DNA from: a virus
Length of the DNA stretch: 44,008 bases
Virus record (IMG/VR): IMGVR_UViG_3300031964_000046
Coordinates: 1 to 44,008 of that record
Direction: 5' to 3' (one strand)
Positions 1,861 through 43,558 of this stretch are shown here, in pieces. The notes beneath the pieces were generated by a model. It was not told where the DNA came from. It did not search any database and saw only the letters and a list, made by a program, of their open reading frames with translations. Numbering within the stretch: position 1 is the stretch's first letter; each line of letters begins with the position of its first letter. The position numbers and the translations under genes were made by a program.

Positions 1861-2441
1861 TAGGTCGCCGCCGTATAGCTCGTGAGTATGCCGTTCGTGA
1901 AGGTCATGGAGCCGTCTGCGCCGCCCGTCGTTAGCTTGGCAGTCGCAACCACTCCGCTTATCCCGTCGGGCGGAAGTTGCGAATCCGTTATTGCCCCTGT
2001 CAGCGCCGAGAGAGCAGGAACCTGACTCGGAGTAACAGCGCCATTAAGAGCCTCAAGATTCGGCACCTGTGCCGCTGTAAGAGACGGCACCTGCGCTGGA
2101 GTCACGGAGCCCTGCAACTGAGACAGCGGAGGCACCTGGGACGGCGTGGCCTTGCCAGCGATGTCTCCGAAGGATGGCTGTACCAGAAGCGGAGCGCCGT
2201 TGGTCCCAATCGCTGCAATCCACTGATGCGTCACCTGCGAGACCGCCAAGATGCCACCCAAAGCGGAGGCGGTTGGAAATGGAATTGAGTCGGGCGAGAT
2301 ATTTCCTTCAGTCGTAAACGCATTGTTTAGCGCCTGCTGAAGATTTTGCAGCCACTTCGTAAAGGCGAAGGTGGGTTGCCCGGTCTTCGGATCCACCAGT
2401 GGGCCGGATGGAACAAGCTGGGCGAATACGAGCGTGCTCAA
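1860..2441 (-). CDS. Virion protein with P-S-Q-V-P repeats
   Basis: About 193 residues if translation starts at TTG 2441, which overlaps the upstream stop as TTGA; the frame stays open to a GTG at 2489. After a helical N-terminal part (FTKWLQNLQQALNNAF) comes a repeated pattern of TPSQVP/TPAQVP/AAQVP units separated by L-x-x-L-x-G, about residues 98-160, which resembles a fibrous or beta-solenoid repeat. It lies between the gp10-like protein and the ACP/GNAT pair, so it is probably a tail or head-tail component. No family is recognised. Confidence 0.6.
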   Translation of the reverse strand: MSTLVFAQLVPSGPLVDPKTGQPTFAFTKWLQNLQQALNNAFTTEGNISPDSIPFPTASALGGILAVSQVTHQWIAAIGTNGAPLLVQPSFGDIAGKATPSQVPPLSQLQGSVTPAQVPSLTAAQVPNLEALNGAVTPSQVPALSALTGAITDSQLPPDGISGVVATAKLTTGGADGSMTFTNGILTSYTAAT

Positions 2442-4846
2442 ACCTGACCCCCACCACTTGAAATCCTCAAGTATGCGTCCACCACGCACCAGAAAACCGG
2501 GTCTGTCACCACCAACTCATAGACCCTATACCGCGATTGCCCGAGGCGTCTCCAGATAGCTCGTGCGTTGTACTGCCCCGCGAAACCTGTGCCTTGTACG
2601 TGCTGATTGCTCCAAGTCTTGCCCCGATTGTCGCTGAAGCGCAAGACAGCCTGCGGAGGTCGAGGGTTTCCATTTCCGTCAACGAGCGGCGGTTGAGGAC
2701 CATTGCCGGTATCGAAGTCCACGCTGAGTTCCGCATGGTAAATTCTCGCCATCTCTGCGATCACGGTCGGAGCCCGCCGCAAACGCCTGATTGTCTTGCC
2801 GTTGTCGGTGTAATTCGCCGCGCTCATCTGGTACAGGTTTCCGGTCGCCCAGTCGCCCACCAAGTGCTTACCGAAGGCGTAGGTGTGATTCCAGCTTTGG
2901 TGCGGTCCCCACACGCCAAGCTGAGTGTTCCACGTGGAACGTTTATGCCACAAACCTTCTGTCACGTCGTAGCACCATGACCATAAGGATTGCGGAACGT
3001 AAATAACCCAGAAGAGGTGGCCCACGTCCTCATAACTGTATGACACCATTGCGGCGAGGTTCGCGGGTGTGTTCGTTCCCAAGTCCAATTCGACCGCATG
3101 AGTCGAAACCCGCATCGGGACATAGCCGTTCGATCTCCACGCCGAGAGAGCCCCGCGTTCATCCTGGTCGATCCAGAATATCGAATTATCGAGCCGCGCA
3201 GGGGCAAATGTCGCGACGCACCCCTTTTCGATCAGGGTGCCGGGGATGACATCGAAGACTTCATTGCTGCCGGTGTCCTGGTAGGGCTGAGACCGCAGGA
3301 ATCCCATGATCCACGGCTCGCGGTGATTCACGATCAGCGAGGAAATGTTCTCTGCAAATACCTCTACCTCGTTCACCAGCAGTCCGGGCCATGTCGTTCC
3401 GTCGAGCACTTGCGACATCTGGAACTTGTTGCTATTCAAGAACATCACGATAAAGTAACTGTCTGAATAATCAGCCTTGAGTGGCGTTCCGGCCATCTGT
3501 GAGGAGACATTCAGGAGTTGCAGCCCTTTATCCACCCAAAGCAGCGTACCCGTTCCGTCTGGAGTGTTTCCGCCGGCATCGTTGAAGTCAGGTATCGCCG
3601 CGCCAGAGGTTCCGGCGTTGTCGCCGGCTGGACCTTGCTCTGCCCAAACGAGGGTATTTGCGTCCGTCGTATTTCCGGTCTCTTGGAATATCGGCTCTGT
3701 TGTGCCGGAAACACCCGCGTTGGTAGCTAGGCCCTGGTCGGTCCATGTGAGTGTATTGCTGTCGAGAACCGAACCCCCAGCATCATCGAACGTCGGAATA
3801 TCGGCCCCTGACGTTCCCGCCTTGCCGTTCGCGGAGGCTTGGTAGACCCAGAAGAGCGTGGTAAGCGTCGTGCCGTCTGTTGTGGCACCGTAGGAACTCC
3901 ACGCAGGCACCGTGGCCCCCGAGGTTCCTGCATTTCCACCCGACGCGGCTTGGTAGGTCCAAACCAGCGTCCCTGTGCCGTCCGCGGTGACACCCGCGCC
4001 ATTCCACACCGGTGCCGAGGCTCCTGAAGTTCCTGCGGTGGTGACTTGCTGAACATTCCCGTTCGAATCTACGATCTGAAATCCCAGCGCATACGCCGTA
4101 TTGGCCGCCCAAGCGTAGGAGTAAGCTTTCTGGGCGTTTCCGTTGGAGTCGACGATTTCCGCGCCCAAAAGATAGGTCGTATTCGCCACCCACGCAGCCG
4201 CCGAAGCCTTTTGGATATGGTTCGCGGCGTCTACAATTTCCGCGCCGACATTGTAGAGCGTATTCGCGATCCATTTCGCCTGCTCGGCCTGCTGAATGTT
4301 CCCGTTCGGGTCCACGATCTGAGCGCCGATGGCATAGGGCATATTCGCGATCCAAGCAGCTGCGGTGGCCTTCTGGATATGACCTGCCGCGTCCTTGATG
4401 ACCTGCCCTACCGTGTAGACCTTATTCGCAGTCCAGACGCCTGGGGAGAGCGTGTAGCAGTAGCAATAGCCATTGGAGATGACGAGTAGCTGGTTGGTAT
4501 TGTTCACCATCGAAACAGGGTTCCCGTCAGAGGTAACATTGCCGATTTCGTTGCGCGTTCCATCTGCGAAAACTTCGTACAGCGTATCCCCATCTACGGC
4601 GAACAACTGGCTACCGGTCCACCACTGCCCCCGAAGCGGTCCCCCATTTTCGTCAGCCGAAAAGATCGATAAACCTGGGGTGCCATAGTAGCTCTTGACG
4701 CTCGCCGCCGTCTGCCCGCCATAGGGCTTGCTCGGAGCGATAGCAGCCTGCGACTCCAATGTCTCCGCATACCAGTTGATACACTCCTCATCGGCCACGG
4801 CCGTGCTCTTGGAGGTGTACGAAGCTCCGACGAAGCCGATCCTCAT
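2438..4846 (-). CDS. P22 gp10-like packaged-DNA stabilisation / tail protein with repeat insertion
   Basis: An 802-residue protein. The N-terminus (GFVGASYTSKSTAVADEECI, then NWYAE and YGTPGL) and the C-terminal part (HAVELDLGTN, SYEDVGHLFWVIYVPQ, LWHKRSTWNT) resemble P22 gp10, a tail accessory factor that closes the portal channel after packaging. P22 gp10 is 472 residues; this one is far longer because of a repeat block at residues about 138-441. The gene follows the gp4-like gene, as in P22, and starts at ATG 4846, overlapping that stop (ATGA). The insertion may form an external appendage on the tail hub. The family assignment is from remembered sequence pattern and gene order. Confidence 0.7.
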   Translation of the reverse strand: MRIGFVGASYTSKSTAVADEECINWYAETLESQAAIAPSKPYGGQTAASVKSYYGTPGLSIFSADENGGPLRGQWWTGSQLFAVDGDTLYEVFADGTRNEIGNVTSDGNPVSMVNNTNQLLVISNGYCYCYTLSPGVWTANKVYTVGQVIKDAAGHIQKATAAAWIANMPYAIGAQIVDPNGNIQQAEQAKWIANTLYNVGAEIVDAANHIQKASAAAWVANTTYLLGAEIVDSNGNAQKAYSYAWAANTAYALGFQIVDSNGNVQQVTTAGTSGASAPVWNGAGVTADGTGTLVWTYQAASGGNAGTSGATVPAWSSYGATTDGTTLTTLFWVYQASANGKAGTSGADIPTFDDAGGSVLDSNTLTWTDQGLATNAGVSGTTEPIFQETGNTTDANTLVWAEQGPAGDNAGTSGAAIPDFNDAGGNTPDGTGTLLWVDKGLQLLNVSSQMAGTPLKADYSDSYFIVMFLNSNKFQMSQVLDGTTWPGLLVNEVEVFAENISSLIVNHREPWIMGFLRSQPYQDTGSNEVFDVIPGTLIEKGCVATFAPARLDNSIFWIDQDERGALSAWRSNGYVPMRVSTHAVELDLGTNTPANLAAMVSYSYEDVGHLFWVIYVPQSLWSWCYDVTEGLWHKRSTWNTQLGVWGPHQSWNHTYAFGKHLVGDWATGNLYQMSAANYTDNGKTIRRLRRAPTVIAEMARIYHAELSVDFDTGNGPQPPLVDGNGNPRPPQAVLRFSDNRGKTWSNQHVQGTGFAGQYNARAIWRRLGQSRYRVYELVVTDPVFWCVVDAYLRISSGGGQV
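3524..4435 (-). repeat. Two sets of five coding repeats inside the gp10-like gene
   Basis: Residues about 138-270 of the 802-residue protein contain five units of about 27 residues with the pattern W-x-A-N-x-x-Y-x-x-G-x-x-I-x-D, followed by N/H-I/V-Q-K/Q-A. Residues about 271-441 contain five units of about 34 residues of the form A-G-T/V-S-G-x-x-x-P, then D-x-x-T-L-x-W. The units are diverged at DNA level but clear in protein. Similar W/Y-G-rich modules in surface proteins often bind carbohydrate; that role here is inference. Confidence 0.8.
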
Positions 4847-12441: not shown

Positions 12442-12569
12442 CAGTTTGCCGCCCCCGCTGCGGAGTCCTTATCGTACTTGACGCCCATCATCTTGTTCGC
12501 CTTGATCCGGACCTTGGTAGCCTGCGCCTTGGTCAGCACATCCTTCGGGATTGTCTTCTTCGGCTTCAT
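12441..12569 (-). CDS. Small Lys-rich hypothetical protein
   Basis: A 42-residue basic protein (MKPKKTIPKDVLTKAQATKV...). ATG 12569 overlaps the upstream stop as ATGA, and the stop overlaps the next ATG. It could bind nucleic acid; no family is recognised. Confidence 0.5.
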   Translation of the reverse strand: MKPKKTIPKDVLTKAQATKVRIKANKMMGVKYDKDSAAGAAN

Positions 12570-12913
12570 ATCGTGTTCGCTCCGTCCTCGTACACAATGT
12601 CCAACACATCGCCGGCGGTCCCGTTGACATACCAGCTCCCGAGGTCACGACCGACACCGGTTGCGGGTCCGACATAGAACGCACCGCCTGGAGTCGCAAC
12701 GCTGAGTCCGCGGGTGGTGCTGATATTCGCGTCTCCGATCCGCATGACGTGGGCTGCATTGTTCTGAAACAGCATCCAAATTGCGTTCAGGTGAGCGCCT
12801 GGGCTCAGAACGGCGGTATTCCCAGCCCCGATGGTAACCTGCATGGTTTTGACAGCTGCGTGGGCCTGCAATGGCAGGAATAGCGCAGCCGCGACAAGTA
12901 TTTTCTTCATCAT
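12566..12913 (-). CDS. Secreted or virion beta-rich protein with signal peptide
   Basis: 115 residues from ATG 12913, which overlaps the terL stop (ATGA) and has GGAG 9 bases upstream. The N-terminus is a textbook Sec signal peptide (MMKKILVAAALFLPLQAHA, cleavage after AHA). The mature part is beta-rich, with an IWMLFQNNAAHVMRIGD motif and a terminal WYVNGTAGDVLDIVYE motif. A signal peptide directly after terL is odd for a phage protein. It may be exported to the envelope or, like the fibre genes at 34-40 kb, be a virion protein carrying a leader. No named family is recognised. Confidence 0.65.
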   Translation of the reverse strand: MMKKILVAAALFLPLQAHAAVKTMQVTIGAGNTAVLSPGAHLNAIWMLFQNNAAHVMRIGDANISTTRGLSVATPGGAFYVGPATGVGRDLGSWYVNGTAGDVLDIVYEDGANTI

Positions 12914-15363
12914 GCCCATCCACTCCTTCTCGCTGGCGGTGCAACTGGTTTAGGTTTCGGCGGCGCAATCTTCACTGCAAACGTCATCGCCCACGCATCT
13001 CCGAAGTCTGGCGAATCCACTCCCCGCGATCGCATCTCGTCTTTGCTCTCAAGCACTATGCAATTCCTCGTAGGGTGGTATCCGTAATCCGGTGCCGTCA
13101 AATCTGTGTCTATCTCTGGATCATCGGGTATCTGTCCACCTTCGAGCCAGTCCTTTCCTTCGCCCCAAATCTCTGTGCGCCGATTGAAATACTTTTGCGG
13201 GTCTTGCGCCGCTGCACCACCGTGGAACTCGAATAAGATCATCTTGCGTCCGTCTGGCCAAATGATCTTGTCATAGCGGCGAGCGACGAGGTAATCGACT
13301 ACCGCCCCGCCAATGCCGTCTCCGTCAATCACTACGGCGTCCGGTCGCTCCCGATCAATTGCTTCCTGAACCATGCCACCAAGCTTCTGAGTGTCCATGC
13401 CGTAGAAGACGCCTTTGGGCTTTCCTCCACATATTTCTGCTTTTCGTCCCTGGCGCTTGAATATGACGCTTCGGTTATCTCCGAATCGAGCAACGTCCAC
13501 GGCGAGGATGACAGGGCTTGATTGGTAGCCATCGACGATTCGCTTTCGCGCTGCTGATACGAGATCGCCGGATATGAATTGCGTAGATCCACCGCGAGGA
13601 AATTCTCCGCGTATTCTGACTCTTGCTCTGTCGGAGTCTTCGCCCCATCCCCTGATTTGGGCGTCGAGGAGCGATTTGTTGGTGCCTTCGACGGTGCGGG
13701 AGTCGATTTGACGCTTGACCCAGCGGTTCGCGCCGGTGATGGCTTTGTAGAACTCGCCGGTGTTGCGCGTTGGGTTTCCGAACGCGATCCAGATGATTTC
13801 CGTGTCTTCATCGCTTAGAACTCCCTCAGCCACTTCCCAGATGATGTCGTCAATTGAGCTAGCCTCGTCGAAGATGATGACGATTCGCTTGCCCTGATTG
13901 TGAAGTCCTGCGAAACCTTCCGTCTTCTGCACCGACCACGTAATAAAGTCGGCTCGCCACATCGCCTGATGCTCAGGGTCTTTGACCCGTATCGACGTGG
14001 CATTGATGTCCCACCAGTGTGCATTGATGCCGTGCCGAAACCACTTCTGCACTTCCGGGGCTGTCTTCGTGGAGAGCTGTACACCAGTTCCAGCCGTGAC
14101 TACTACCTTGCAGTCCTCGCAGGTGCTCATGGCCCAATCAATCACCATGCCAATCTCGGCACTGTTGTGCGTCACAATGAAATCGGAGGTTTGATACAGC
14201 CCTCCGTCCACCTCAAAGCAAATGCCTGGACCCGACTCTATTTCCTCAATTGAATCAATCCACTTAGCCGTGTATCTCGATTCTGCGGCGATCAGACGGC
14301 TTTGCTTTCGAGCAATCTTGAAAAGCTGTGTTACGCCGTCCCAAGTTATATGCGTCTGCCAACTTCCGGCAAATTGATTGGCCTTGAAACTCTCCGCCCT
14401 TGCTCTCAAACCTAACGATCTGGCCAGTTCGATAACGTCTTTGGTGAGCTGACGGGATGCGCTGGCAAACGCTGCTCCTCCGCATTGCTCTACCCAGCCA
14501 TCCGTATCGAGCAATCCTTGAAGAACCTCTAGGCGTTCAGATGACTCGATGTAGCGACGGTCTACCTTTGCGTTATACGTGGTGCAACCAAATAGGCCAG
14601 CCTTGCGAAGATGTTTCTTTAGTCCATATAGGGTACGACAGACGCCTTGCCCACGGTGGGGATACGCCACGTTATCCCAAACTTCTGGGTCGATGTTCGT
14701 TACGCCTCCGCCATCCTTTGTCCCATCTCCGAGCCACACGCCATACGTGTATGGGTCAACGGGTAGCATAGCTTTGGCGTATTGAACTGCGCCAGAGGCA
14801 GGTATCTCCCATTGCCTAGACAAAGAAACTCCGTTGGCCCTCAGAACTCCAGCGTTCACGATATCGAGCGTTGAAACTACCTTCCACCCAGTTCCGTTCC
14901 GCCTAGCTTGTCTGTCCCGCGTCTTCCACAAATGACCGGATGAAACATTGACGGCCGTTCCATCAGAAAAGCGAACTCGATAGAAAGGGCATGACTCGTA
15001 AAACCTCATCGCTCGAATCAAAGCCGGCGATCCATCTTCGCCAAACAGATAATCTCCCACACGCATGGTAGAGATTTGGCGTAAACCGTCAGGCGTAGGC
15101 AGATAATCTTGAGGGCTCTGAGCCTTCCCAATGCCGTGGCCCGATGCGACCGCGATCTGCAATGGCTGATGCCGCGTCTCAGGGCTTGCGAAGTGATCCC
15201 GGATCAGCGTGTTGATGTCGTTCTGCCACGTTCGAGGTCCGCTCGCCGGCAGCTTCTCCGACTCCCAAGGGAAGTTGTACCGCATGAAGCCGACCGGATC
15301 GAGCGAGTAAGCCCCGATGTCCTGGGCAAGGGCTAGTTCTTCCTCTGCCAAGCCGCCCTTCAT
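12910..15363 (-). CDS. terL: Terminase large subunit interrupted by an intein
   Basis: The frame encodes 817 residues: an 80-residue N-extein, a 320-residue intein (81-400) and a 417-residue C-extein, giving a 497-residue mature terminase. Walker A is split: GHGIGK (75-80) is followed after splicing by S401. Walker B is IVIIFDEA (493-500), followed by the coupling motif FGNPTR (529-534). The RuvC-like nuclease shows AVDVARFGD (D623), VVIDGDG (D680) and SPDFGDAWA (D786/D789). The protein pumps DNA into the procapsid and cuts concatemers. ATG 15363 overlaps the RHH ORF stop (ATGA). The host P-loop is useless until the intein is removed, so splicing is essential for packaging. Confidence 0.93.
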   Translation of the reverse strand: MKGGLAEEELALAQDIGAYSLDPVGFMRYNFPWESEKLPASGPRTWQNDINTLIRDHFASPETRHQPLQIAVASGHGIGKAQSPQDYLPTPDGLRQISTMRVGDYLFGEDGSPALIRAMRFYESCPFYRVRFSDGTAVNVSSGHLWKTRDRQARRNGTGWKVVSTLDIVNAGVLRANGVSLSRQWEIPASGAVQYAKAMLPVDPYTYGVWLGDGTKDGGGVTNIDPEVWDNVAYPHRGQGVCRTLYGLKKHLRKAGLFGCTTYNAKVDRRYIESSERLEVLQGLLDTDGWVEQCGGAAFASASRQLTKDVIELARSLGLRARAESFKANQFAGSWQTHITWDGVTQLFKIARKQSRLIAAESRYTAKWIDSIEEIESGPGICFEVDGGLYQTSDFIVTHNSAEIGMVIDWAMSTCEDCKVVVTAGTGVQLSTKTAPEVQKWFRHGINAHWWDINATSIRVKDPEHQAMWRADFITWSVQKTEGFAGLHNQGKRIVIIFDEASSIDDIIWEVAEGVLSDEDTEIIWIAFGNPTRNTGEFYKAITGANRWVKRQIDSRTVEGTNKSLLDAQIRGWGEDSDRARVRIRGEFPRGGSTQFISGDLVSAARKRIVDGYQSSPVILAVDVARFGDNRSVIFKRQGRKAEICGGKPKGVFYGMDTQKLGGMVQEAIDRERPDAVVIDGDGIGGAVVDYLVARRYDKIIWPDGRKMILFEFHGGAAAQDPQKYFNRRTEIWGEGKDWLEGGQIPDDPEIDTDLTAPDYGYHPTRNCIVLESKDEMRSRGVDSPDFGDAWAMTFAVKIAPPKPKPVAPPARRSGWA
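14164..15123 (-). mobile_element. Class 3 (WCT) intein with LAGLIDADG endonuclease
   Basis: 320 residues inserted in the terL P-loop between Lys80 and Ser401. The first residue is Ala, not Cys/Ser (AQSPQDYLPTPDG). The class 3 triplet is complete: Trp146 in block B (SSGHLW, two residues after the block B His144), Cys382 in block F (GICFEV), and Thr398 just before the terminal His399-Asn400 (FIVTHN). Class 3 inteins splice through the block F Cys instead of residue 1. The centre holds two LAGLIDADG-type motifs, GVWLGDGTKDG (block C) and LQGLLDTDGWV (block E), so it may be an active homing element targeting the conserved Walker A codons of intein-free relatives. Confidence 0.9.
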
Positions 15364-15590
15364 TTAGCCCCACAGAGAGAACATTTGCAGCGCGGGTGAT
15401 GCCCTTGCGTTTTGGAGCGGGGGGAAGGAATCGAACCTTCGACCTGCGGACTGGAAGGCCGCTGCTCTTCCTCTGAGCTACCCCTGCGGATCAAATCCAC
15501 CGCAACCCAATTGCGACTGCGTTGAAGCCTCACACCTTCTTCGTCCAGCCGGGCCACCAATTCGTCAGGTATTCGAAGCGATATCACCAT
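15360..15590 (-). CDS. Ribbon-helix-helix protein whose frame contains a tRNA gene
   Basis: A 76-codon frame from ATG 15590. The first 37 residues are an RHH (CopG/Arc) domain: beta strand MVISLRIP, helix DELVARLDEEGV, turn, and helix RSRNWVAVDLI. The frame then passes without a stop through the whole tRNA-Gly gene (25 codons, giving GSSEEEQRPSSPQVEGSIP) and ends with a CKCSLCGAK tail, overlapping the terL start as ATGA. The RHH part is convincing; whether the rest is translated is unclear, since tRNA processing would cut this mRNA. It could be an autoregulator of the packaging operon. Confidence 0.55.
   Translation of the reverse strand: MVISLRIPDELVARLDEEGVRLQRSRNWVAVDLIRRGSSEEEQRPSSPQVEGSIPSPRSKTQGHHPRCKCSLCGAK
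15413..15487 (-). tRNA. tRNA-Gly(TCC)
   Basis: A 75-nt cloverleaf with encoded CCA. Acceptor is GCAGGGG/CCCCCGC with one A-C mismatch at pair 3-70. The D arm is GCTC/GAGC with loop AGAGGAA. The anticodon arm is GCGGC/TCCGC, with the inner C-T pair unpaired, and loop CTTCCAG giving anticodon TCC. The variable loop is 5 nt. The T arm is GAAGG/CCTTC with canonical loop TTCGATT. It reads GGA codons. It lies between terS and terL, wholly inside the reading frame of an RHH ORF on the same strand. Phage tRNAs usually supplement host codon supply; tRNA genes are also common recombination sites. Confidence 0.88.
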
Positions 15591-30388: not shown

Positions 30389-30573
30389 GATGGGCACGAG
30401 TGGATGATTGGATCTATGACATTGCTTGTCCGGTGTGCGGAGCCCCAGCAGATGCTTTCTGCGAAGATCGTCGCAAGTGTCGTGCAGGTCACCCCGGATG
30501 GGGGCATGTAAAACCTCACAGAGAAAGAATCGTCGCAGCAAGGGTCGCGCCTACGCGAGAGGGAGCACTATGA
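30385..30573 (+). CDS. Small zinc-binding protein
   Basis: 62 residues with CPVCGAPADAFCEDRRKC and a following His-rich HPGWGHVKPH. The CxxC-x9-C plus His pattern resembles a small zinc finger found in many phage and bacterial short proteins. ATGA-coupled at both ends. Confidence 0.65.
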   Translation: MRWARVDDWIYDIACPVCGAPADAFCEDRRKCRAGHPGWGHVKPHRERIVAARVAPTREGAL

Positions 30574-30884
30574 AAAAGATTGTCGCAGCACTGATCGTAT
30601 CAATGATGGCCGGAAGCCTAGTAGCGCAACTTCAACCAGGGCAGTACGAAGAAATGATGGCGAAACTGGAACGAGTTCGCGAAGCGTTTGATTCTGCAAT
30701 GTGGGCTCCGAACCTTCGGGATGCAGAACTCCGAACGAAAGAAGGCAAGCGTTGCGATTCTTTGAATTGGCCGGTAAATGATAGTGGTTGCCGTAGCATA
30801 GCTATGGCTGCTGGAGTTATTATGCTCCGCGAATCCAAAGCTAACGGCGACATTTTGACGCGAGAGGGAGCAAAGGGAAAATGA
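30570..30884 (+). CDS. Exported early protein
   Basis: 104 residues from ATG 30570, overlapping the previous stop. N-terminal Sec signal peptide MKKIVAALIVSMMAGSLVAQ (cleavage likely after VAQ or SLVA). The mature part is helical with two Cys (KRCDSLNWPVNDSGCRS) that could form a disulphide in the periplasm. An exported protein in the early operon could act in superinfection exclusion or envelope modification; this is inference. Confidence 0.6.
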   Translation: MKKIVAALIVSMMAGSLVAQLQPGQYEEMMAKLERVREAFDSAMWAPNLRDAELRTKEGKRCDSLNWPVNDSGCRSIAMAAGVIMLRESKANGDILTREGAKGK

Positions 30885-33402: not shown

Positions 33403-33692
33403 TGCTGCTCCACTTTTCGGTCTATTCTATCCTGCCGCCAGTTCCTATATCCGTGTCGTATCTGTCTGCGGCACCCTAAAAACTCGACGTCCAAAGATGG
33501 CAGCGATACCCGAATATTGAGCCCGAACGCAGCCACGCAGTCCACGAATAGGCGGTACACGGCATGGAGCAGGGGGTGGCGTCTCAGCAGTTCGTGCCGG
33601 GGCAGCACGTTCGCCAGGGCCGCATTGAGCGCAATGAAGACGCACACCCGTCGAAAGTCATGCTGAAGGTAGATCCACGTTTCGTGATTCAT
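33399..33692 (-). CDS. Lysis-cassette hypothetical protein
   Basis: 97 residues from ATG 33692 (ATGA overlap): MNHETWIYLQHDFRRVCVFI, then a His/Arg/Leu-rich middle with a moderately hydrophobic stretch (YRLFVDCVAAFGLNIRVSL). It lies between a membrane protein and the lysozyme, which suggests a lysis accessory role. No family is assigned; the longer frame from 33818 is a shadow. Confidence 0.55.
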   Translation of the reverse strand: MNHETWIYLQHDFRRVCVFIALNAALANVLPRHELLRRHPLLHAVYRLFVDCVAAFGLNIRVSLPSLDVEFLGCRRQIRHGYRNWRQDRIDRKVEQQ

Positions 33693-34033
33693 GGCGTCTT
33701 CTTCCTGACCTGAATCACGATCGAGACGCCTGACAAGAGGGCAAGGATCGAACCGATGATGCGCTGCTCCCCCTGCATTCCTGCGATGTCGATGGAGTTC
33801 TTCTGGATTGCCTCCCACTGCCGAGACATCTGCGCTTCGGTGCTCTCGACGTGCTTATCTGTCGACTCCAGATGCTTGTCAATCTCATTCATGCGGTAGA
33901 CGCTAATCTCTGGCACCTGCTGGGCATGGACAGGAGGGTTCCGACCGTCAAAGACAATCGCCAGACAGACAAGCGCGAACGATCCTTGGCAGAAGAGAAA
34001 GCAGAATCCCCTCCATGTACGTCTATTTGCCAC
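33689..34033 (-). CDS. Membrane protein with coiled coil, lysis candidate
   Basis: 114 residues from GTG 34033 (GGAG 10 bases upstream); ATG 34054 is an alternative. N-terminal hydrophobic segment GFCFLFCQGSFALVCLAIVF, a helical stretch EIDKHLESTDKHVESTEAQM, and a C-terminal hydrophobic segment IIGSILALLSGVSIVIQVRK. The topology (membrane, coiled coil, membrane) suits a holin or spanin-like component. The start overlaps the preceding small gene by 11 bases. Confidence 0.6.
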   Translation of the reverse strand: MANRRTWRGFCFLFCQGSFALVCLAIVFDGRNPPVHAQQVPEISVYRMNEIDKHLESTDKHVESTEAQMSRQWEAIQKNSIDIAGMQGEQRIIGSILALLSGVSIVIQVRKKTP

Positions 34034-34160
34034 AGTTTTGCATCTCCGCTGCATGTTCGATTCGTTGGCCGTAAAAGATTGAAGTGAAGGCGTAAAGCGA
34101 CCATATCAACAGGACGAAAAGGGCGGTTTTGGCGAAGTTGCTAGGCTCGGGTTTGCTCAA
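34023..34160 (-). CDS. Small membrane protein
   Basis: 45 residues from TTG 34160 (GGGGA about 7 bases upstream): SKPEPSNFAKTALFVLLIWS, then LYAFTSIFYGQRIEHAAEMQ. One clear membrane span with a short charged tail. The TTG start forms TTGA with a preceding short frame. A lysis or membrane role is likely from context. Confidence 0.5.
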   Translation of the reverse strand: MSKPEPSNFAKTALFVLLIWSLYAFTSIFYGQRIEHAAEMQNCGK

Positions 34161-34367: not shown

Positions 34368-36194
34368 CTAATTAGAGATGCCCTGTAGCCATTGACGGTA
34401 TCCCTTGTACATCTTTTTTGCATAGAAGAGTACGCCAGGAGGAGTGGGGTGTGTCCCGTCTGATGAAACAATGTACGTTCCTCCATTCCCGGGATTGATC
34501 CATGGACCGTCAGGGTCATTTGTAATGGGAATAAATATCGAGTTGGGGTCTCCCCACGTCGAGTAGGCGGTTTGGAGTGCCGCCTCCAAAGTGGTCGAGA
34601 AGTCGAAGGTATAGCTCGTGGTGGTTTGAATCCCGAAAATTAGAATTGGTGTGTTCGGAGCATTCGCGCGGATTTTCTGCCAGGTAGTAAGCGCTGCCGC
34701 CCCAATTGTCGTATCGTATCCGGCGTCGTTGACACTCCCGAGAATCACGATAAGATCGCACGACTGCCGCAGGACATCATTTGCGCGGTATATGCTCGTC
34801 CACGCGTAGTTCGTCCCTCCACTGTTGATATACCCCGTCCCTCCGACGGAAAGAAGATAGGGATGGAGACCGGCCAAAGTGGCGAACTGCATGGCAGTAT
34901 TCTCAGCGCCAAAGCTGCCCGCTGCTCCTCCATTGAAGTAGCTGTCGCCAAACATGCAGGCATTGACACGGTTCGCCTCAGATGCTTTCCAAACGGAACC
35001 GGGAGCGTACACGTAGAGATGTTGTAAAAGCATATTGCCCTGAAGTTCGATTCTAACCTTGTGAATGCTCGCCGTGCTGAAGGTGATCGGGATACAATTC
35101 CCCGCACCCACCGTGCTGACAGTTGATGTTTGGTAAGAATCATCCACGGCGACACGGTAGAGTGCTGGCGAGACACCGTTGGTGTAGAGGCATTGCATTA
35201 TGCTGGGGAGCGTTGAAGTGATGGTCTCGGAGCTTATTGTGGCCTGGGCGAGACTTAGGGTGTAGGTACCGGCCCCTCCCGTTCCGGTTCCGAGCGCGGT
35301 GATATAAACAGGGCCAACCGTCCCAACACCGCTAAGGTACTGCCCGACAGCGAGAGTCCCTGATGCACATGCCGCGACCGTGTAGGTGGTTGCGGAGATA
35401 GAGCCAGTACAGACGGCGGGAACGATAAAATTGGCAGCGTCTGTGTAGAATTCAAAATATTTCGGGGTGGGTGCATTTGTGGGAGCCGTGGGAGGGTTCA
35501 CATAGTTTCCCGCCGTAGACCCAGAAACTCCAGCATTTCCGCCGTAGCTCTGAATCACGCCTCCGGCCACATCCACCAATTGCGTGAAAGCCTGCGTAGG
35601 GAGGGCGGAGGTGGTCCCCATCGCAGACTTCGAGATCGTGATTGTTGCGGAGGTGACTGCGGTTACTACAGACCCCATCGGAATATAACTCGGGTATGCG
35701 GCATATGCTGCATTTTCCACGAATGGCATCCCTACAACAACCGGATAGGTGCAACTTTTACCGGTGAGTAGATTGCTTCCCGACGTGGTGTTCACCACGC
35801 AATCCGATGCGAATCCGGTCGTCGCGGGCAAGATGTTGGTGTAGCCTGTTGTCGGCAATGCGACGGACGGACTATCGACGACAGCCATACTGGTGACTGG
35901 GTTGTCAACTAGATTAGAGGCATCCGCTTTGGCGGCGGAAGCGCGCATTTTGCGGATGGCGGCGGACGGCTGAGAAGTGAGTGCTGCGATTGCGGCACCA
36001 GTTGGGTCATATACGCCTGACCCGATGACCGACTGAACTTGCGAACTTGTCGCACTAACTGCCGTTCCAGAAGAGTTGGTGGCTACGACCGGCACAGATG
36101 GAGGGAGAACGGCACTGCCGCCAGTGTTCGGCGGAACGTATTGCCCGAGAGCGGTGCCGCCTGTCAACATCAAAAATAGAAGAATGCGCTTCAT
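34368..36194 (-). CDS. Tailspike/fibre with SGNH esterase domain and signal peptide
   Basis: 608 residues, ATG 36194 with AAGGAG 7 bases upstream. N-terminal signal peptide [18 protein letters not shown] helix-rich beta/Thr-rich shaft follows. The C-terminal 200 residues are an SGNH/GDSL hydrolase: block [10 protein letters not shown] (Ser418), block II VGGTGY, block III ILGSVND (Gly486, Asn489), block [10 protein letters not shown] (Asp579, His582). Such domains on tailspikes remove O-acetyl or other acyl groups from surface polysaccharide. All catalytic residues are present. Confidence 0.8.
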
Positions 36195-36222
36195 ATAGTG
36201 CTCCTTAGTTGTGGTGGAAACT

Positions 36223-39200
36223 CTAGTGGTTGGTCAGCTGCGTTGCAGCCACGCGCAGATCATAGGTGGGGAATGATCCGCCACCAGAAGTGGTACTCAC
36301 GGTTATCGCGCTGCCGGATTGCATATTTGCGGAACCTGAGATATAGACCGGAGATCCCAAGGTTGTGCAGGTGAGGTCTACCTCAAAGTTTTGCGACTGT
36401 CCCTGAGTATCCGTGTAGTTCACCACCGTAGGCACGGAGAGGCCTGACCCCGAACTACGGCAGTTCTCGGCCAGATCGATCCTGTAGAGCCCCGCCGTGG
36501 GAGTCGTTAGCACAGAAGCGGTGGAGACTGCGGAGGTGAGGCTGGATCCCACGTAACTTCCCGTCACGCCGCCGCCCGATCCTGTTGCGGTGACCGTGAC
36601 AGTTCCGGTTCCACCCGAGGGCGACAAAGAGATGCCGGTGCCCGCCACAAGCTGCGTCACGCCACCGGAGGATGCTGGGCAGTTGCTGCCGTTCAACTGG
36701 CAGACAGGGTTTCCGCTCACTTCGAGCGAGGTGAAGTTACCCGGCGCAGGTGTCGTCGCCCCGATCTCAATGTTGTTGATTGCCGATACAGAGCCGGCGA
36801 CTCCATCAGTAACCGTCATCAACCCGTTTGGAATCTGCGGAACATTGAGAACATTGGTGGTGAAGTTTCCAGTGATGAGGTTGTTAATCAGAAAACTCTG
36901 GATCGTCGGCTCGAACGTAATGTCCTGCTCGCCGTAGGTTCCCGATCCCTTATAGCGAAATACTGAGAAAGCGTGTCCGTCGTCGAACGGCGAGGGAAGA
37001 GCGGGATCATTAGAAATAGAAGGCCCGACCGACAGGAGCGCGAATCCCGGCTCGGGGGACCACTGAGTATCGATCAGGTTCGAGAACGCTCCCAACGATT
37101 CTACTGCGGTTGGAGCTCCCAGCGTGCCGCCGTGACCTTGGAGATCTGCCGTGGGAAGGAAGTTCTGCCATGAAATCGCGTGTGCCTCGTTAGAGCCTAG
37201 ACCAACACCATGCATTTCGATGTTGATCGGGACGCTGGGCGCTCCGTAATCGGGAGTGTTCTTGTTGGCCGAGATGCCGATTCCGTTGACCCAAGAGACT
37301 GGATAGGCGGGGTTTTGCAGGATGTCCCCGCTTGACCACGCGACGGTGTTCGGCTCACATGGGATGGAATTTCCCTGCATCGGTCCGGAGATCGTGCAGT
37401 AGGGGTAAAGATGAACATTGTTCACATTGGGAATGGTGACGATGGCCGTCGTGCTCGGTGTGGTCACCGCGGTGGCTGTAGATTCCTGACACGTAGCTCC
37501 TATCACCTGAGTGGAATTAAAGAGGGTCTTGACTCCAGTGCAGGTGCCGTCCATAGTAGGCGTCGAACCTGAGCCCGAAATAGTTACGGATGCTTGCCCT
37601 CCGGTCAGAATTCCCCCATTCGCGTAGAAGGTCACGAGCCCGGTACTGTCGCGAGTCATGGAGTAAGGAGTAACCGGAGCGATATAGTAATGAAGGGTAT
37701 TCCCGTTCGTGTTGCCGAGCGCGTTGACGCTATAGGCGATGTGGGACGAGTCAATGGCACCCACCGCCTGGAACGCTTGAGGCCACCCGTCTCGGGCAAC
37801 GTTGCGATCAAGATTGATATCGTAATTCGCTAGACCGCCTTGCCATAGGGAGGTGTTTCCAGCCGACTCCGGGAACTTGTAGGTGACGGTGACTCCCTGC
37901 AATCCTCCGCTTACCGATCCCGCGACGATGTTCACCTGTTCGATGAAGTTGTTTCCAGCCAATGTCGCTACGCCAGTCGTAAATGCTCCCGACCCGGGAC
38001 CGAGCGTCAAGGTAAAATTGGCTGTCGAACTCAACCCCGAGTTCGGCTGATTGAACGGCGCAGAGGTGGTGCCGTAGGCTGTCGATACTGGAAGCGTGCA
38101 TCCCGACACCGGTGCCGAGTATACGTTTGATCCACTAATGACAGGCGTGGTGCTCAGGTCAGAACCGGAGATGGCGCAAGTCAATGCATGGGCTGGATTT
38201 TGATCCTCTAGGAAAGAATCCTGGCTCGGATACTTTGCCACTCCCGTCGAGGTAACGGGCAGAAGAGTTGCTCCCGTAGACACTCCCGAGCTGGCGGTTC
38301 CCGCCCATATCCCTCCGCCTTCATCTAGCTCAGGCTGACCAATGTGGATTCCGAGGGCCTTGGTGCTCTCGTCTGACTGTGCTGTTGCGCCGCCGTTGTC
38401 AAACCCATACCAATACCCCAGCGTGAAGTCCCCGGCGGCATATTTGTTTCGGTAAATAGTCATCGTCTCGGCGATCCCCGAGGACTGCACATCCCCATAC
38501 AGTTGCAGAAGATGGCTACCCGACCAATCCTCGCCACCTCCTTGGGCAGAGCCGCCGATATTGCCGAGAGAAAATCCGTGCGGCGGGGCGAACAGGTCGA
38601 ACATTTCCAAGCCCCCGGAGAAGGGGTAGGTGGCCGAAGTATTAATGAAATTCTGTACATTGCAATCTGCGCTTGCCGAAGGGCAGGCCGCGTAGCTCAT
38701 CCCGTAGGTCGCTGGGCGGAGATCCCACACCACGACATTCTGCGGGATCGTCAGGGATGCCACGTTCTCAGTCGAGGTCGAGGTCGCTGGTATGACAATT
38801 GTGCAGCTAATCGAGGCACAGCTTGTCGCTATGAGGTTAGCGACACCGTTGTTTCCCCCGCCGCTGATCGCGGAATCGGAGTTGTAAGTTCCGAGGAAGC
38901 TTCCCGCCGTCCCTGCTCCGCAGGCCGCGCCAGCGTCGCCTAGAGTGGTCCCCGTTACCCAACTAGCACAATGACCCGCCGTAATAGCGCCGCTCGGATG
39001 AACGGCCGCGTTCGCAATGGTCAAGGCAGTATTGGCGGTAGTCACTGCACCGTCCCATGCGATGACGTTGGCCGTGGTGGGTAGCGCATGGCCCGAATCT
39101 ACCCCAACCGTCAGAGCGGGAGTTGTAGTTGGGCTCGTGACCGAGGTGGTAATGCCAGAGGTGCCTGTAGCGGAGAAATTGCTGATCCCCCCGCCGCCGC

Positions 39201-39285
39201 TGCCGCCGATCTGCACGCCCTTGCTCAACTGCACCTGGGCCGAGAGAGAAGTGGCGAACAGGAAAATCAATGCAATCTTTTTCAT
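36223..39285 (-). CDS. Large tail fibre/spike protein with signal peptide
   Basis: 1020 residues, ATG 39285 with GAGGA 5 bases upstream. N-terminal signal peptide [17 protein letters not shown]. The body is beta-rich, full of Gly, Thr, Ser and Asn, with [10 protein letters not shown]-like Cys pairs and [20 protein letters not shown], resembling the start of a right-handed beta-helix spike. A Gly/Val-rich segment ([20 protein letters not shown]) precedes a C-terminal domain. It probably binds or cleaves host surface glycan. No catalytic motif can be named from the sequence. Confidence 0.7.
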
Positions 39286-39293
39286 GTCAATCC

Positions 39294-40505
39294 TCAGAAA
39301 GTCGTTTCATACCAGCTTGCGGGAGTGCTTCCGACCGTTCCGGAAACGACGATTTTGTAATAGAAACCGGGCGGCACCATGCAGACGAAGCCCGCTGCGG
39401 CACCGGAAACCGAAGCTGTGGATTCGTTGAAATAGACCGTGTACACCGGGGTAGCCGCTGGGCCGTTGAGGCAGGCCACGCTTCCCGTACTGCTGCCTCC
39501 GGTAGTCATGTTGCCCGAGACAAACATCAATTGGGCGGTGGTGTTTTGGTAAACCGTGCCGGCGACGCGAGAGCCTGTGAGATTCGCGCTCTGTGCGACG
39601 TTGGCACCGGCCGCAATTCCTGAGTCCACGGTATTTCCATTGGCATCGAACTTCGCGAAATTCCCGCTTGCTGCCGTGCCGGAGGAGTGCTGTACCAGCG
39701 TTCCTGTGCCCTGGTTGCCCGTCATGGCCGTTCCGGTGGCTAGTTTGAGGCTCAGCGGGTTGATTGCGCCCGGAGCCGCCACGTAGGCTGTGCTAGCGGG
39801 ATTTGTGCTGTTGTCGCTTGGAGTCTGTGTGGCTACCGTGATTCCTGCCGGAAGAACCGAAGACCCGCCAATGACAGACCCGCTCGCCGGGTAAATGGCG
39901 ATCTGATTCACCGTACCCGAACCGATCGAACCTGCTCCGAGAGAAGCTAGGGCAGTTGCAGGGGTTGTGGTGTCGAATGTCCACGTGGTAGGCGTTCCGT
40001 TGGCCCCGATGGTGACGTGCGCCGTAGTGAGAGTGCCAACGTTGATTGTGTGGGCGCTCGGGTTGATGGTGATGGTGGCATCGCAGGAAAGACCCGTAAC
40101 CGCTGTATTGGCAATCTGGATTGAGTTTGCAGGTCCGCAGGGGAAAATTCCACCACCGCCACTAACGTTATCGACGGTAAAAACCGTATTTCCCGAAGCG
40201 TCGATGAGAACGAACTTGTAGGAGTTCAGCCCCATCCATATTGCGCCCGAGCTGCCGCTGGGGGTAAGCGGTCCTCCATCTGCTCCGAGGATGATGGGAT
40301 TGGTGTTTTGTGAGGTCCCGGTAGCGTCGGTGTAGGTTGGTTGCGGCGTTGTCGATCCCGCTTGGTAACTGTAGAGCGAGCATCCGGCGCAGGCTAGCCC
40401 CACGGCATTATTGAAGACCATGTGAGGTTGCGTAATGGGAGAAACTGGAACCTGCGCCATGCACGGTAGCGCAAATAGCAGCCAAAGGGCGTATCGTTTC
40501 ATCAT
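39294..40505 (-). CDS. Tail fibre protein with signal peptide
   Basis: 403 residues from ATG 40505 (MMKRYALWLLFALPCMAQ, signal peptide); the frame is open to ATG 40520. The mature part is collagen-free, Gly/Ser/Thr/Asn-rich beta structure with repeated short G-T/N-x-V segments and several Cys. The C-terminus VVSGTVGSTPASWYETTF resembles a fibre tip. It is the first of three signal-bearing fibre genes. No good SD is seen for any start. Confidence 0.6.
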   Translation of the reverse strand: MMKRYALWLLFALPCMAQVPVSPITQPHMVFNNAVGLACAGCSLYSYQAGSTTPQPTYTDATGTSQNTNPIILGADGGPLTPSGSSGAIWMGLNSYKFVLIDASGNTVFTVDNVSGGGGIFPCGPANSIQIANTAVTGLSCDATITINPSAHTINVGTLTTAHVTIGANGTPTTWTFDTTTPATALASLGAGSIGSGTVNQIAIYPASGSVIGGSSVLPAGITVATQTPSDNSTNPASTAYVAAPGAINPLSLKLATGTAMTGNQGTGTLVQHSSGTAASGNFAKFDANGNTVDSGIAAGANVAQSANLTGSRVAGTVYQNTTAQLMFVSGNMTTGGSSTGSVACLNGPAATPVYTVYFNESTASVSGAAAGFVCMVPPGFYYKIVVSGTVGSTPASWYETTF

Positions 40506-40543
40506 GTTTGAAATGCTCATAAGCGGCTATGCTCTCGCGTACA

Positions 40544-41959
40544 TCACTGTGAGGGTGGTGGAGTGGTTTCTTGAGCGGAGTTGTCGGAAGCAGAACTCGC
40601 CTGAGATGCGGCAACTGTGGCTCCAAGACTTGATGCGTAGGCATTCACGCGACTCGTGGCCGTGGAAATAGGAATCTTCTGCGCTTTGCTTACTGCAATC
40701 GCAAGCCTGGACTTCACGTTCGGATTGTCCAGAACCCCCTTCAGCACCATCGCCACCCGTCCCACGCTCGTGCTTCCTGTTAGAGCTGCGGCCGCCTCTC
40801 CTGCGATGGGTGTCCCGATTCCGATGGCCTGATGGTTTGAGATTCGGTTGACTGCCCGCTCTAGAACAGGCTGCAAATCCAGCAAACGGGATTCCGATGC
40901 GTTGAGGTTATTGATTTCCGGAAACTGTTTGGCAATTTCCTCTTTCAATCCCCTCGCGAGAGCTTTTTGAGCTTCTACCGAGGCACTGCCCTGCTCTCCA
41001 AACTTGCCCTTTAGCACCCGGTAGGTGCCCTGCTTCATCGCCTGAGCATCGGCAGCTCCCATAGGTGGCGCAGGTTGGGCTGGAGTGCCAGCAGTCATGA
41101 TGGGGTTTCCCTGAGCATCAAGGATTCCGGTAGGCTTGGGAGGGATAGCTGGCGTCCTGCCTTGCTCGTCCAAAAACTGCTGTTTCGAGGCTTCGATAGC
41201 CTTTAGGTCCGGTTGAGCATTGACTTGATTCGCGAACCTTGCTTTCGCCGCATCCGCCCGCGTCGCTACCGCGTTCGGGTCAATCGGGCGGTTAGGATCT
41301 GCTGCAATCTTGTCTTTGATCTTCTGATTTAGTGTGTCGATCAAATCTCCCAGTTTCTCAACGCCTGCCTTAGACACTGGCACCGCATTCTCAAGACCTG
41401 TTTGGATCATCGAGGAACGTTGTGCGGGGCTTAGAACGGTAGAGGGCTTAAGAGCGCTTTCGTATGCCGCCTCCGGGGTCTTGCCAAGCAGCGCAGCCTT
41501 CCCCAAGGCGGGGACGACCTTTGGTGCGACCGCGCTTACGCCTTCTCCTGCGACATCGCCAGCAACCGAACCTACGGCCGTCTGACCAATGGCGTTGCCG
41601 ATGAACTTGCTCGGGTCGGAGCGCAACGCATCCACTTCAGCGTGAGCCGTATCCAGCGGATGAGCGACCGCATGAGCCATCGACGATAGGGTATCTAGCG
41701 GATGAGCGATCGCGCTGACAGCCTGAGCCCCGCCCTGACCGACGTTCGCGACAAATCCCTTTACAGCCCCATCTCCCGGCTGAGCGCCCTGCGTGGCAGC
41801 GTTGAAATTGGCCTTTGCCCTATCCCACAGGCTAGGCGCTTCTGCTGGAGTGGCCGGAGTTGCTCCATGCTGGGCCGCCAAGGCGTCGTAGTCCACTGCG
41901 GCAGGGGTAGCGCCATGCTGCTTCGCCAGCGCGTCGTAATCAATCGCAGGGCTGCCCAT
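40544..41959 (-). CDS. Internal virion / injection protein
   Basis: 471 residues starting at ATG 41959, directly after the upstream TAA. Two N-terminal repeats D-Y-D-A-L-A-x-Q-H-G-A-T-P (about 7-19 and 23-35). Then largely Ala-rich amphipathic helices (AHPLDTLSSMAHAVAHPLDT, VLSPAQRSSMIQTGLENAV). No catalytic residues are recognised. Composition and location match the large helical ejection proteins of podoviruses (P22 gp16/gp20 class). Confidence 0.6.
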   Translation of the reverse strand: MGSPAIDYDALAKQHGATPAAVDYDALAAQHGATPATPAEAPSLWDRAKANFNAATQGAQPGDGAVKGFVANVGQGGAQAVSAIAHPLDTLSSMAHAVAHPLDTAHAEVDALRSDPSKFIGNAIGQTAVGSVAGDVAGEGVSAVAPKVVPALGKAALLGKTPEAAYESALKPSTVLSPAQRSSMIQTGLENAVPVSKAGVEKLGDLIDTLNQKIKDKIAADPNRPIDPNAVATRADAAKARFANQVNAQPDLKAIEASKQQFLDEQGRTPAIPPKPTGILDAQGNPIMTAGTPAQPAPPMGAADAQAMKQGTYRVLKGKFGEQGSASVEAQKALARGLKEEIAKQFPEINNLNASESRLLDLQPVLERAVNRISNHQAIGIGTPIAGEAAAALTGSTSVGRVAMVLKGVLDNPNVKSRLAIAVSKAQKIPISTATSRVNAYASSLGATVAASQASSASDNSAQETTPPPSQ

Positions 41960-43558
41960 TTACTGAATACCTGCGGCTTTCTTGAACGCATCGGCGGACG
42001 CCTGATCTTTGAAGGAATAGGCTTTGCCATTGGGTGCGGTTACAGTGAGAGGACTTGACGCTTGTTGGCCTGACGGGGAGCCATACATGCGCTTCAGGAC
42101 TGAGTTATTGCCGATACGGGAATCAATTTGAGATTGGGCCGATGTCCTGATTCCATTTACGGCGGAAGCCCTTGCTTCAGGGCTGGCATTTGCCTTGATG
42201 AGATCGACTGCCTGCTGACGAGCTGTGTCGCTGCCCGTTCCACCTCCCATAACCTTCGCATAATCGTCGGCAACACCCACAACCTTTGCAGCGTATTCTG
42301 CCAACGGGCCACTACCGGTCGCAGCCTTTTTCCAATCCGCAATTGTATTGAAGGCTGGTATCTGGCTGCTCGGCAGTTTCTTCCCGAGCTTTAGTAACTG
42401 GTCTAAGTTGCCGCCAGGATCGGTGAGAGATTTGGCAGACCCGAAGAACTTGTTGTTGTCTTCCGACTTGGCAACTTGGAACTCAGCGTCCGCAGCCATA
42501 GCGTTGTACTGACCACCACTTATTTGATGGGCTGCCGTAAGGGTCTTCTCAATGAACTCAGGTGTCGCGCCCCTCGCCTTCAACTCTGAAAGTGTCGCAT
42601 CCTTATTCACAAGCAACTGAGCCGCTGCGTTCGGGTCACCCTGGGACAATGCCTGGCGCTGACGAGCAAGCGCCATCTCCCCCGGCATACGGGCATTCTC
42701 TTCCGCGCCAGCCTTAGCCGCTGCCTGCGATACAGCGAAATCAGCCGGCCCCTTACCCGGATGCTTCGCCAGCCAATCGTTCTGCTGCTGCACCTCGACC
42801 GGCACTCCCGGAGCACCGCCGTTCTTCTGGTAGTAACCAACCTCTGCGTTGGTCTTCGCCGTGGTTGCGTTCGCTTCGGCAGTCTGCGCCGCGTCCTTCA
42901 GGATTCCCGCCTGCTTTGCCGCTTGCTCCGTAATCTGCGACTGCGCCATAAGCGTGTTGCGGAACTGCATGACGCCTTCCCTGATCTTGGTTGGGTCGCC
43001 GGATTGGGCCAACTGTGCCGCTGCCTGAGCGTGCTGAGGGTCTAACGCTCCCTGCTGCGTAAGGCTCTGCACCGTTTGAAGCAGCATTTGCGGCAGTTGG
43101 GCATCAGGAACCGATTTCGGATCAGCCAACGGCGAAAGCGCACCGTTTACGAGGTCGTTTTGCTTCAGTTTAGCCGTAATTTGCGACTCTGCTGCCGCGC
43201 CATTGTTTTTGGCTGCCAACGCGATATCCGCCTGCTGCTTGAGGACACTTGTCTTCAGCCCAATCACGGCCTGTGCGTCTCCGCCGTTCTTCAGGATTGC
43301 GGGGTAGAGCTGGTTGTAGTCTTTGCCGTCCCAATCGGTCATTGCCTTGGTAACGGCTTGCTGATTCTTCTGCTGCTGCTGTTTCTCCTGAAGATCAATC
43401 GCTCCCGACTGCACCTGCTGTTGGGCGGCCTGCTGCTGCAACGGAGCGTTCTGCTGCTGTTGCTTGATCTGCATGAGACGCGAGTATTGGTCCAGCATGT
43501 TGGGCTGGGGTGTGGGAGGATTGACCGAAAGTGCGGGGAGAGGAATAGAGCTACCCAT
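41960..43558 (-). CDS. Internal virion / injection protein, Gln-rich
   Basis: 532 residues, ATG 43558 with GGGAG about 9 bases upstream. The N-terminal half is a Gln/Ala coiled coil (MQIKQQQQNAPLQQQAAQQQ...), and the rest is helical. C-terminal stretches are NSVLKRMYGSPSGQQ and APNGKAYSFKDQASADAF. On the circular map it is separated from the injection protein at 237-1226 by the HNH gene. It is divergent from that HNH gene with only 14 bases between starts. Confidence 0.6.
   Translation of the reverse strand: MGSSIPLPALSVNPPTPQPNMLDQYSRLMQIKQQQQNAPLQQQAAQQQVQSGAIDLQEKQQQQKNQQAVTKAMTDWDGKDYNQLYPAILKNGGDAQAVIGLKTSVLKQQADIALAAKNNGAAAESQITAKLKQNDLVNGALSPLADPKSVPDAQLPQMLLQTVQSLTQQGALDPQHAQAAAQLAQSGDPTKIREGVMQFRNTLMAQSQITEQAAKQAGILKDAAQTAEANATTAKTNAEVGYYQKNGGAPGVPVEVQQQNDWLAKHPGKGPADFAVSQAAAKAGAEENARMPGEMALARQRQALSQGDPNAAAQLLVNKDATLSELKARGATPEFIEKTLTAAHQISGGQYNAMAADAEFQVAKSEDNNKFFGSAKSLTDPGGNLDQLLKLGKKLPSSQIPAFNTIADWKKAATGSGPLAEYAAKVVGVADDYAKVMGGGTGSDTARQQAVDLIKANASPEARASAVNGIRTSAQSQIDSRIGNNSVLKRMYGSPSGQQASSPLTVTAPNGKAYSFKDQASADAFKKAAGIQ

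Follow-up and report, generated by a model that had tools for sequence, protein, structure and literature searches.

On a contig of a tailed phage, three consecutive genes encode fibre proteins, each of which begins with a segment resembling a signal peptide of the Sec pathway. The question is whether these leaders serve for export by the host and, if so, whether the exported proteins still become part of the virion. The preliminary description of the locus offered two answers: either the leader acts as a virion anchor, or the proteins go to the envelope and join the particles late. From the evidence given below, we consider it rather likely that the three genes form the receptor-binding cassette of a P22-like podovirus encoding tailspike/fibre proteins, and that their leaders are working Sec signal peptides.

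Genomic setting of the fibre cassette

The window, as the whole analysed stretch of DNA is called here, is the 44,008-nt IMG/VR record IMGVR_UViG_3300031964_000046, and the phage belongs to the P22-like podoviruses. Its late genes, which are encoded on the minus strand and run across both contig ends, follow the order small terminase, large terminase (12910-15363), portal (PHROG 156), scaffold, coat (PHROG 283), gp10-type hub, DNA ejection protein (PHROG 598), two presumed ejection genes, fibres 1-3 and lysozyme. The identical order is found contiguous in related contigs. The tail hub (2438-4846, minus strand; PHROG 578, E 3.5e-81), of the P22 gp10 kind (head closure Hc3), is the expected docking partner of the spikes. 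Directly upstream of the fibre cassette are the two presumed ejection proteins (41960-43558 and 40544-41959, both minus strand), whose role is assigned by position and which have neither leader nor cysteine. The cassette is closed by the endolysin, a phage lysozyme (32971-33402, minus strand; Pfam PF00959, E 7.1e-39), which is leaderless, as is the hub. The relatives described below suggest that the host is probably a member of the Acidobacteriota. The tRNA-Gly of the window is not host-informative, as its best match reaches 87% among 199 Acidobacteriota genomes vs 84% among 200 Proteobacteria genomes over only about 60 bases.

Some other features of the window are also worth recording. The tRNA-Gly(TCC) gene (15413-15487, minus strand) sits between the terminase genes. 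The large terminase carries an apparent intein within its Walker A motif (SGHGIGK / S), with Ala as its first residue, VTHN as its end before Ser, and a LAGLIDADG homing-endonuclease domain (Pfam E 1e-4). Beside the lysozyme gene, 33689-34054 (minus strand) encodes 121 aa with an N-terminal hydrophobic segment ending in VHAQQ and a C-terminal membrane segment; this protein is a candidate spanin or holin. Another leader is found on a small early-region gene (30570-30884, plus strand), for which the best in-frame start is internal to the reading frame as listed (MKKIVAALIVSMMAGSLVAQLQPGQ).

Leaders of the three fibre proteins

Fibre 1 (34368-36194, minus strand; 608 aa) comprises a leader, a tail-fibre-like segment and a C-terminal GDSL esterase. 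Fibre 2 (36223-39285, minus strand; 1020 aa) has a leader followed by the conserved mature start QVQL(S/G)K(G/N)VQIGG. Fibre 3 (39294-40520, minus strand) is a short tailspike/adaptor of 408 aa, or of 403 aa if translation starts at the ATG at position 40505. The leader of fibre 1 has 17 residues (36144-36194) and ends at the predicted cut ALG/Q, that of fibre 2 has 16 (39238-39285) and ends at LSA/Q, and that of fibre 3 (40455-40505) reads MMKRYALWLLFALPCMA, with the cut at CMA/Q. Each combines a charged n-region and a hydrophobic core with a small residue at -1, and lacks both a lipobox and a Tat motif. By hydropathy window, the leaders of fibres 1 and 2 are too short for a membrane span.

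The signal-peptide scores were obtained with a home-made rule set, for which six known signals and three cytoplasmic proteins served as a check. Fibres 1, 2 and 3 score 7.5, 7.2 and 6.5-6.6, and six known E. coli Sec signals score 5.9-8.9. Among 2000 shuffled N-termini for each protein, the leader score is reached 5, 16 and 119 times, so that the leader of fibre 3, which bears cysteine and tryptophan, is the weakest. The same scorer finds no internal segment of fibres 1-3 that scores as high as their leaders. Ribosome-binding sites at the leader ATG are good for fibre 1 (AGGAG) and fibre 2 (GAGG), and a weak GAG only is present for fibre 3; no well-placed alternative ATG is found just downstream of the leader in any of the three. 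Thus, the claim of three consecutive minus-strand reading frames (34368-40505) with Sec-type leaders is borne out. The cut sites had also been described as of Ala-x-Ala/AQ type. What stands of this is the small -1 residue and the Gln at +1 common to all three, the -3/-1 pairs being A/G, L/A and C/A.

Strict Ala-x-Ala occurs only in a fourth protein, which was said to share the feature. This protein of 117 aa adjoins the terminase (12566-12919, minus strand; start at 12919, 12913 or 12910) and has a Sec leader with the cut AHA/AVK and a score of 8.6. It holds no cysteines, and it has no homologue among the relatives except copies of the same phage. It is, therefore, a separate case, and the leader is its sole tie to the fibres.

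Tailspike features of fibre 3 and the esterase domain of fibre 1

The mature part of fibre 3 gives the clearest indication of its role. Residues 18-125 (40131-40454, minus strand), which start exactly at the predicted cut and contain a CAGC motif (C39/C42), align with the head-binding domain of the tailspikes of cyanophages Pam1 and Pan3 (E 5e-16 and 5e-15; PDB 7eeq, E 5.4e-16, and 9vyg/9vyh). An AF2 model of this domain (pLDDT 74) matches Pan3, P22 (1lkt, Z 9.8), Sf6 and Pam1. After the phage head-binding domains, the next structural match is to WceF, a bacterial enzyme that is exported and has a tailspike fold. The full-length model of fibre 3, built from five sequences, reached a pLDDT of 40, and structure matching was thus confined to the head-binding domain. 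Since a P22-type head-binding domain stands at the mature start, fibre 3 appears to be a tailspike preceded by a signal peptide.

Fibre 1 is the only one of the three fibres with a GDSL lipase/acylhydrolase domain (residues 415-587; 34434-34952, minus strand; Pfam PF13472, E 1.5e-11), and it also matches a tail-fibre family (phrog_38233, E 1.8e-10). Both features fit a spike with an esterase. That fibre 3 is a virion part is supported by its head-binding domain along with the encoded gp10-like hub. For fibres 1 and 2, in which no virion-attachment domain was recognised, the same role is supported only by gene position.

Conservation of the leaders

Relatives were gathered by portal-based and fibre-based searches, with portal identities ranging from 100% down to about 41%. 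In these, nearly all the cassette genes, which are flanked by the ejection genes and the lysozyme, bear leaders. The fibre 3 homologues in related phages are 49-58% identical and have the leader. Among 14 leader-bearing fibre 3 homologues compared, Ala is present at -1 in 13 and Gln at +1 in all, while the hydrophobic core varies freely. Such a pattern is that of a working site for signal peptidase I (SPase I) and not of an anchor helix. As close relatives of fibres 1 and 2 are few, the conservation of their leaders is read from gene position and the N-terminal motif of fibre 2.

The head-binding domain with a leader and Gln at +1 is found in Acidobacteriota contigs (Acidiferrales, Sulfopaludibacter and an Acidobacteria MAG), and likewise in two further Acidobacteriota genomes of a 396-genome sample. 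One closed Acidobacteriota chromosome of 6.4 Mb (G263) shows the layout of the window: ejection-like genes are followed by three leader genes in a row, whose mature products hold 8, 2 and 24 cysteines, and then by a lysozyme-like gene. This cassette resembles the remnant of a prophage. Leader fibres are also carried by a Sulfopaludibacter prophage, on a contig of 446 kb, and by an Acidiferrales prophage, whose fibre locus adjoins apparent lipid A genes. The preliminary description had proposed checking whether relatives keep the leader; it is indeed kept, down to about 41% portal identity, in two Acidobacteriota prophages and in the G263 cassette.

The domain stands without a leader in nearly all Proteobacteria homologues (Burkholderia, Gluconacetobacter, Ramlibacter, Rhodoferax), and also in numerous further viral contigs, for most of which the host is not known. 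In the leaderless homologues, it mostly begins within about ten residues of the initiator Met. No leader was found in the controls, namely the spike/fibre genes of Shigella phage Sf6 and the tailspike part of Bacteroides phage crAss001. There are exceptions to this division: a leaderless homologue on an Acidobacteriota-binned contig (G215), a leader on a homologue in a betaproteobacterial MAG contig (L068), a virus with a leader without Gln (L129) and a 'Bathyarchaeota' bin with leaderless spikes. The last of these probably holds foreign viral contigs, as two of its contigs (L060, L062) carry P22-like portals along with leaderless spikes.

A tree built from 60 rows and 107 columns of the domain requires at least two changes for the leaders (2-4 in the bootstrap). 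As it is poorly resolved and one row (L174, a prophage with the same gene as L072) was wrongly entered as leaderless, repeated gain of leaders is not claimed. Portal searches in about 400 genomes per phylum gave one Acidobacteriota prophage and six Proteobacteria ones, which are too few for a test of prevalence.

Leaders were also observed outside the cassette. In distant relatives, the gene right after the major capsid protein has a Sec leader and encodes 236-326 aa with four cysteines in each case (L049:10244-10954, L052:8076-9005, L054:5881-6858, L056:11459-12439); the product is possibly an exported head decoration protein. At this position, the close clade carries a leaderless gene of 161 aa that is unrelated. 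Small leader genes on the opposite strand lie just before the fibre cassette in two relatives (L039:7549-8043, minus strand, and L091:9661-9963, minus strand; cuts PAFA/QSPE and PAIA/QPSP).

Cysteine parity

Should the leaders direct the proteins into an oxidising compartment, their cysteines would be expected in pairs. The preference for even cysteine numbers is an accepted mark of exported proteins (PMC7678975). Several cysteines per fibre had been noted earlier, and the mature counts are indeed 8, 16 and 6 for fibres 1, 2 and 3. Among the leader-bearing genes of the window and its relatives (n=58), 52 have an even number of mature cysteines, 4 an odd number and 2 none. The leaderless genes of the same contigs (n=328) comprise 104 even and 118 odd, and the difference has a Fisher p of 4e-11, which, like all gene-level values here, is inflated by shared ancestry. 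When one representative per family is taken, a test that addresses this ancestry, the leader-bearing proteins are 23 even and 3 odd (p 4e-5). The three odd representatives resemble errors of the scorer: a membrane-type segment, a start inside a coat gene and another membrane protein. With at least four mature cysteines, the number is even in 51 of 53 leader-bearing proteins vs 50 of 99 leaderless proteins of the same phages. The starts and cut sites were chosen without the use of cysteines, and the result holds across score cut-offs from 5.5 to 8.

Leader-bearing adaptor fibres contain 2.05 Cys per 100 aa and have a CxxC in 11 of 17, compared with 0.92 and none of 37 for the leaderless ones. 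The CxxC of the leader homologues stands at the LxGG position of the leaderless ones. An odd count is found in the fibre of the Sulfopaludibacter prophage, the portal of which has an in-frame stop. Parity is weak among the proteins with predicted signal peptides in two Acidobacteriota genomes (18 even and 20 odd; 14 even and 14 odd), membrane proteins being among those counted. The phage spikes thus appear richer in paired cysteines than the typical exports of the host. Even-cysteine parity, which is the strongest evidence available, indicates that the leader-bearing proteins would fold oxidatively after export.

Fit of the leaders to the probable host

At the predicted cut, Gln is exposed as the mature N-terminus in all three fibres. 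Across the predicted signal-peptide proteins of two Acidobacteriota genomes, Gln occurs at +1 more often than any other residue, though not in the majority (17 of 56 and 10 of 36, which are lower bounds because the sets contain membrane proteins), and in a small proteobacterial control it occurs in 2 of 17. The so-called Q-rule, with pyroglutamate, has been reported as specific to Bacteroidetes (PMC5837995); the present counts suggest that it may extend to the Acidobacteriota. A type I glutaminyl cyclase (PF05096) is present in 20 of 80 Acidobacteriota genomes, including G263. VKOR, a disulfide-forming enzyme, is found in both G263 and G303, two hosts of leader cassettes.

A possible route of assembly and its alternatives

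Taken at the level of sequence, it is well supported that the leaders would act as Sec signals and that the mature proteins would fold in an oxidised state. In the route proposed here, the host Sec machinery would export the spikes, and SPase I would cleave the leaders, exposing Gln, which may then be cyclised to pyroglutamate. Disulfides would be formed by host enzymes in the periplasm. Heads and tails, meanwhile, would be assembled in the cytoplasm. Opening of the cell by holin and endolysin would then allow the folded spikes to dock on the gp10-like hub and complete the virion. P22 spikes bind finished heads in vitro, and late docking is therefore chemically reasonable. Of the envelope route put forward in the preliminary description, export is upheld, and so is the place of fibre 3 in the virion, with its head-binding domain directly after the cut; the late joining at lysis is something that we infer.

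The same evidence of export would also apply if the proteins skip the virion and act on the producing cell, either as depolymerases/esterases that loosen its surface polysaccharide for release or by masking receptors against superinfection. The GDSL esterase in fibre 1 suits such a role, and so does the match to WceF of Pantoea stewartii (PMC7949094). There are precedents as well: a signal-peptide esterase of Xanthomonas phage PBR31 adjoins its lysis genes (PMC10975493), and Q-rule proteins of Porphyromonas gingivalis phages have been interpreted as modifiers of the host surface (PMC10367356). However, fibre 3 retains the P22-type head-binding domain and the gp10-like hub is encoded, and no leaderless spike gene was recognised in the window, so that a virion without fibres 1-3 would have no receptor-binding protein. 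This explanation is, therefore, considered unlikely.

Two other explanations are far less probable. If the leaders exported only a part of the protein, disulfides could form outside after release and stabilise the exposed fibres in soil, since aerobic surroundings would yield them too. But parity is not seen in the leaderless proteins encoded by the same phages, which include many virion parts, and leaderless fibres elsewhere are 14 even and 20 odd; parity thus tracks the leader and not exposure, which makes post-lysis oxidation very unlikely. An uncleaved leader, retained as a hydrophobic virion anchor or assembly tag on a protein that remains cytoplasmic, would agree with the usual assembly of virion proteins in the cytoplasm and with the N-terminal attachment of the P22 spike. 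Against this anchor, the other option of the preliminary description, stand the length of 16-17 residues, the conserved SPase I site, the restriction of even-cysteine parity to leader-bearing proteins, and the homologues that attach via the same domain without any leader. It is accordingly disfavoured, and we regard it as the most improbable of all.

Export followed by late joining is thus the reading preferred here. It is about an even call whether it extends to a whole lineage of Acidobacteriota tailed phages with two-compartment assembly, in which head and tail would be made in the cytoplasm and the entire receptor-binding cassette in the periplasm (with SPase I cleavage, paired cysteines and perhaps pyroglutamate), to be joined only at lysis.

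Comparison with known systems

The phages P22, Sf6, Pam1 and Pan3 share with the window the mature N-terminal domain of the tailspike, by sequence and fold (7eeq, E 5e-16; 1lkt, Z 9.8), the hub family, and the order terminase, portal, scaffold, coat, hub, ejection and spike. Their spikes, however, have no signal peptide and begin directly with the domain (that of Sf6 is leaderless), whereas a Sec leader precedes it in fibre 3, and the LxGG segment is replaced by an invariant CxxC in the close clade of the window. Coat proteins of filamentous phages are, like the window fibres, virion proteins with Sec signal peptides, but these phages assemble at the membrane and are extruded without lysis, and their proteins and virion type are unrelated. 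WceF (PDB 6tgf) is likewise a tailspike fold exported from the cytoplasm, but it is encoded by a bacterial gene, has a Tat signal and acts as a biofilm glycan enzyme and not as a virion part. The Q-rule proteins of P. gingivalis phages (PMC10367356) have tailed-phage signal peptides that expose a host-matched Gln at +1; they differ in being proteins of unknown function, thought to alter the surface of a Bacteroidota host. Host Sec also exports the SAR or signal-peptide endolysins of tailed phages (PMC4640515), which are lysis enzymes rather than virion parts, and the endolysin of the window is leaderless.

Implications

P22-type tailspikes, Sec-exported phage proteins and virion proteins with signal peptides (in filamentous phages) are all known already. 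In the open-access literature searched, no earlier report was found of tailspikes with Sec leaders, nor of a tailspike cassette in a tailed phage that is exported en bloc, its cysteines paired and its cut site matched to the host, and this is what appears to be new. If the proposed route is true, annotators should take care not to dismiss such leaders as misassigned starts or to label the proteins as secreted by the host. The view that the virion proteins of tailed phages fold and assemble in the cytoplasm only would then fail for soil phages of a widespread group. Such a route would also account for disulfide-rich receptor-binding proteins with up to 36 cysteines, and it would raise the question of how the spikes avoid blocking the receptors of their own host before lysis. 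Further, spike genes whose leader is followed by Gln at +1 may help in assigning phages to Acidobacteriota hosts.
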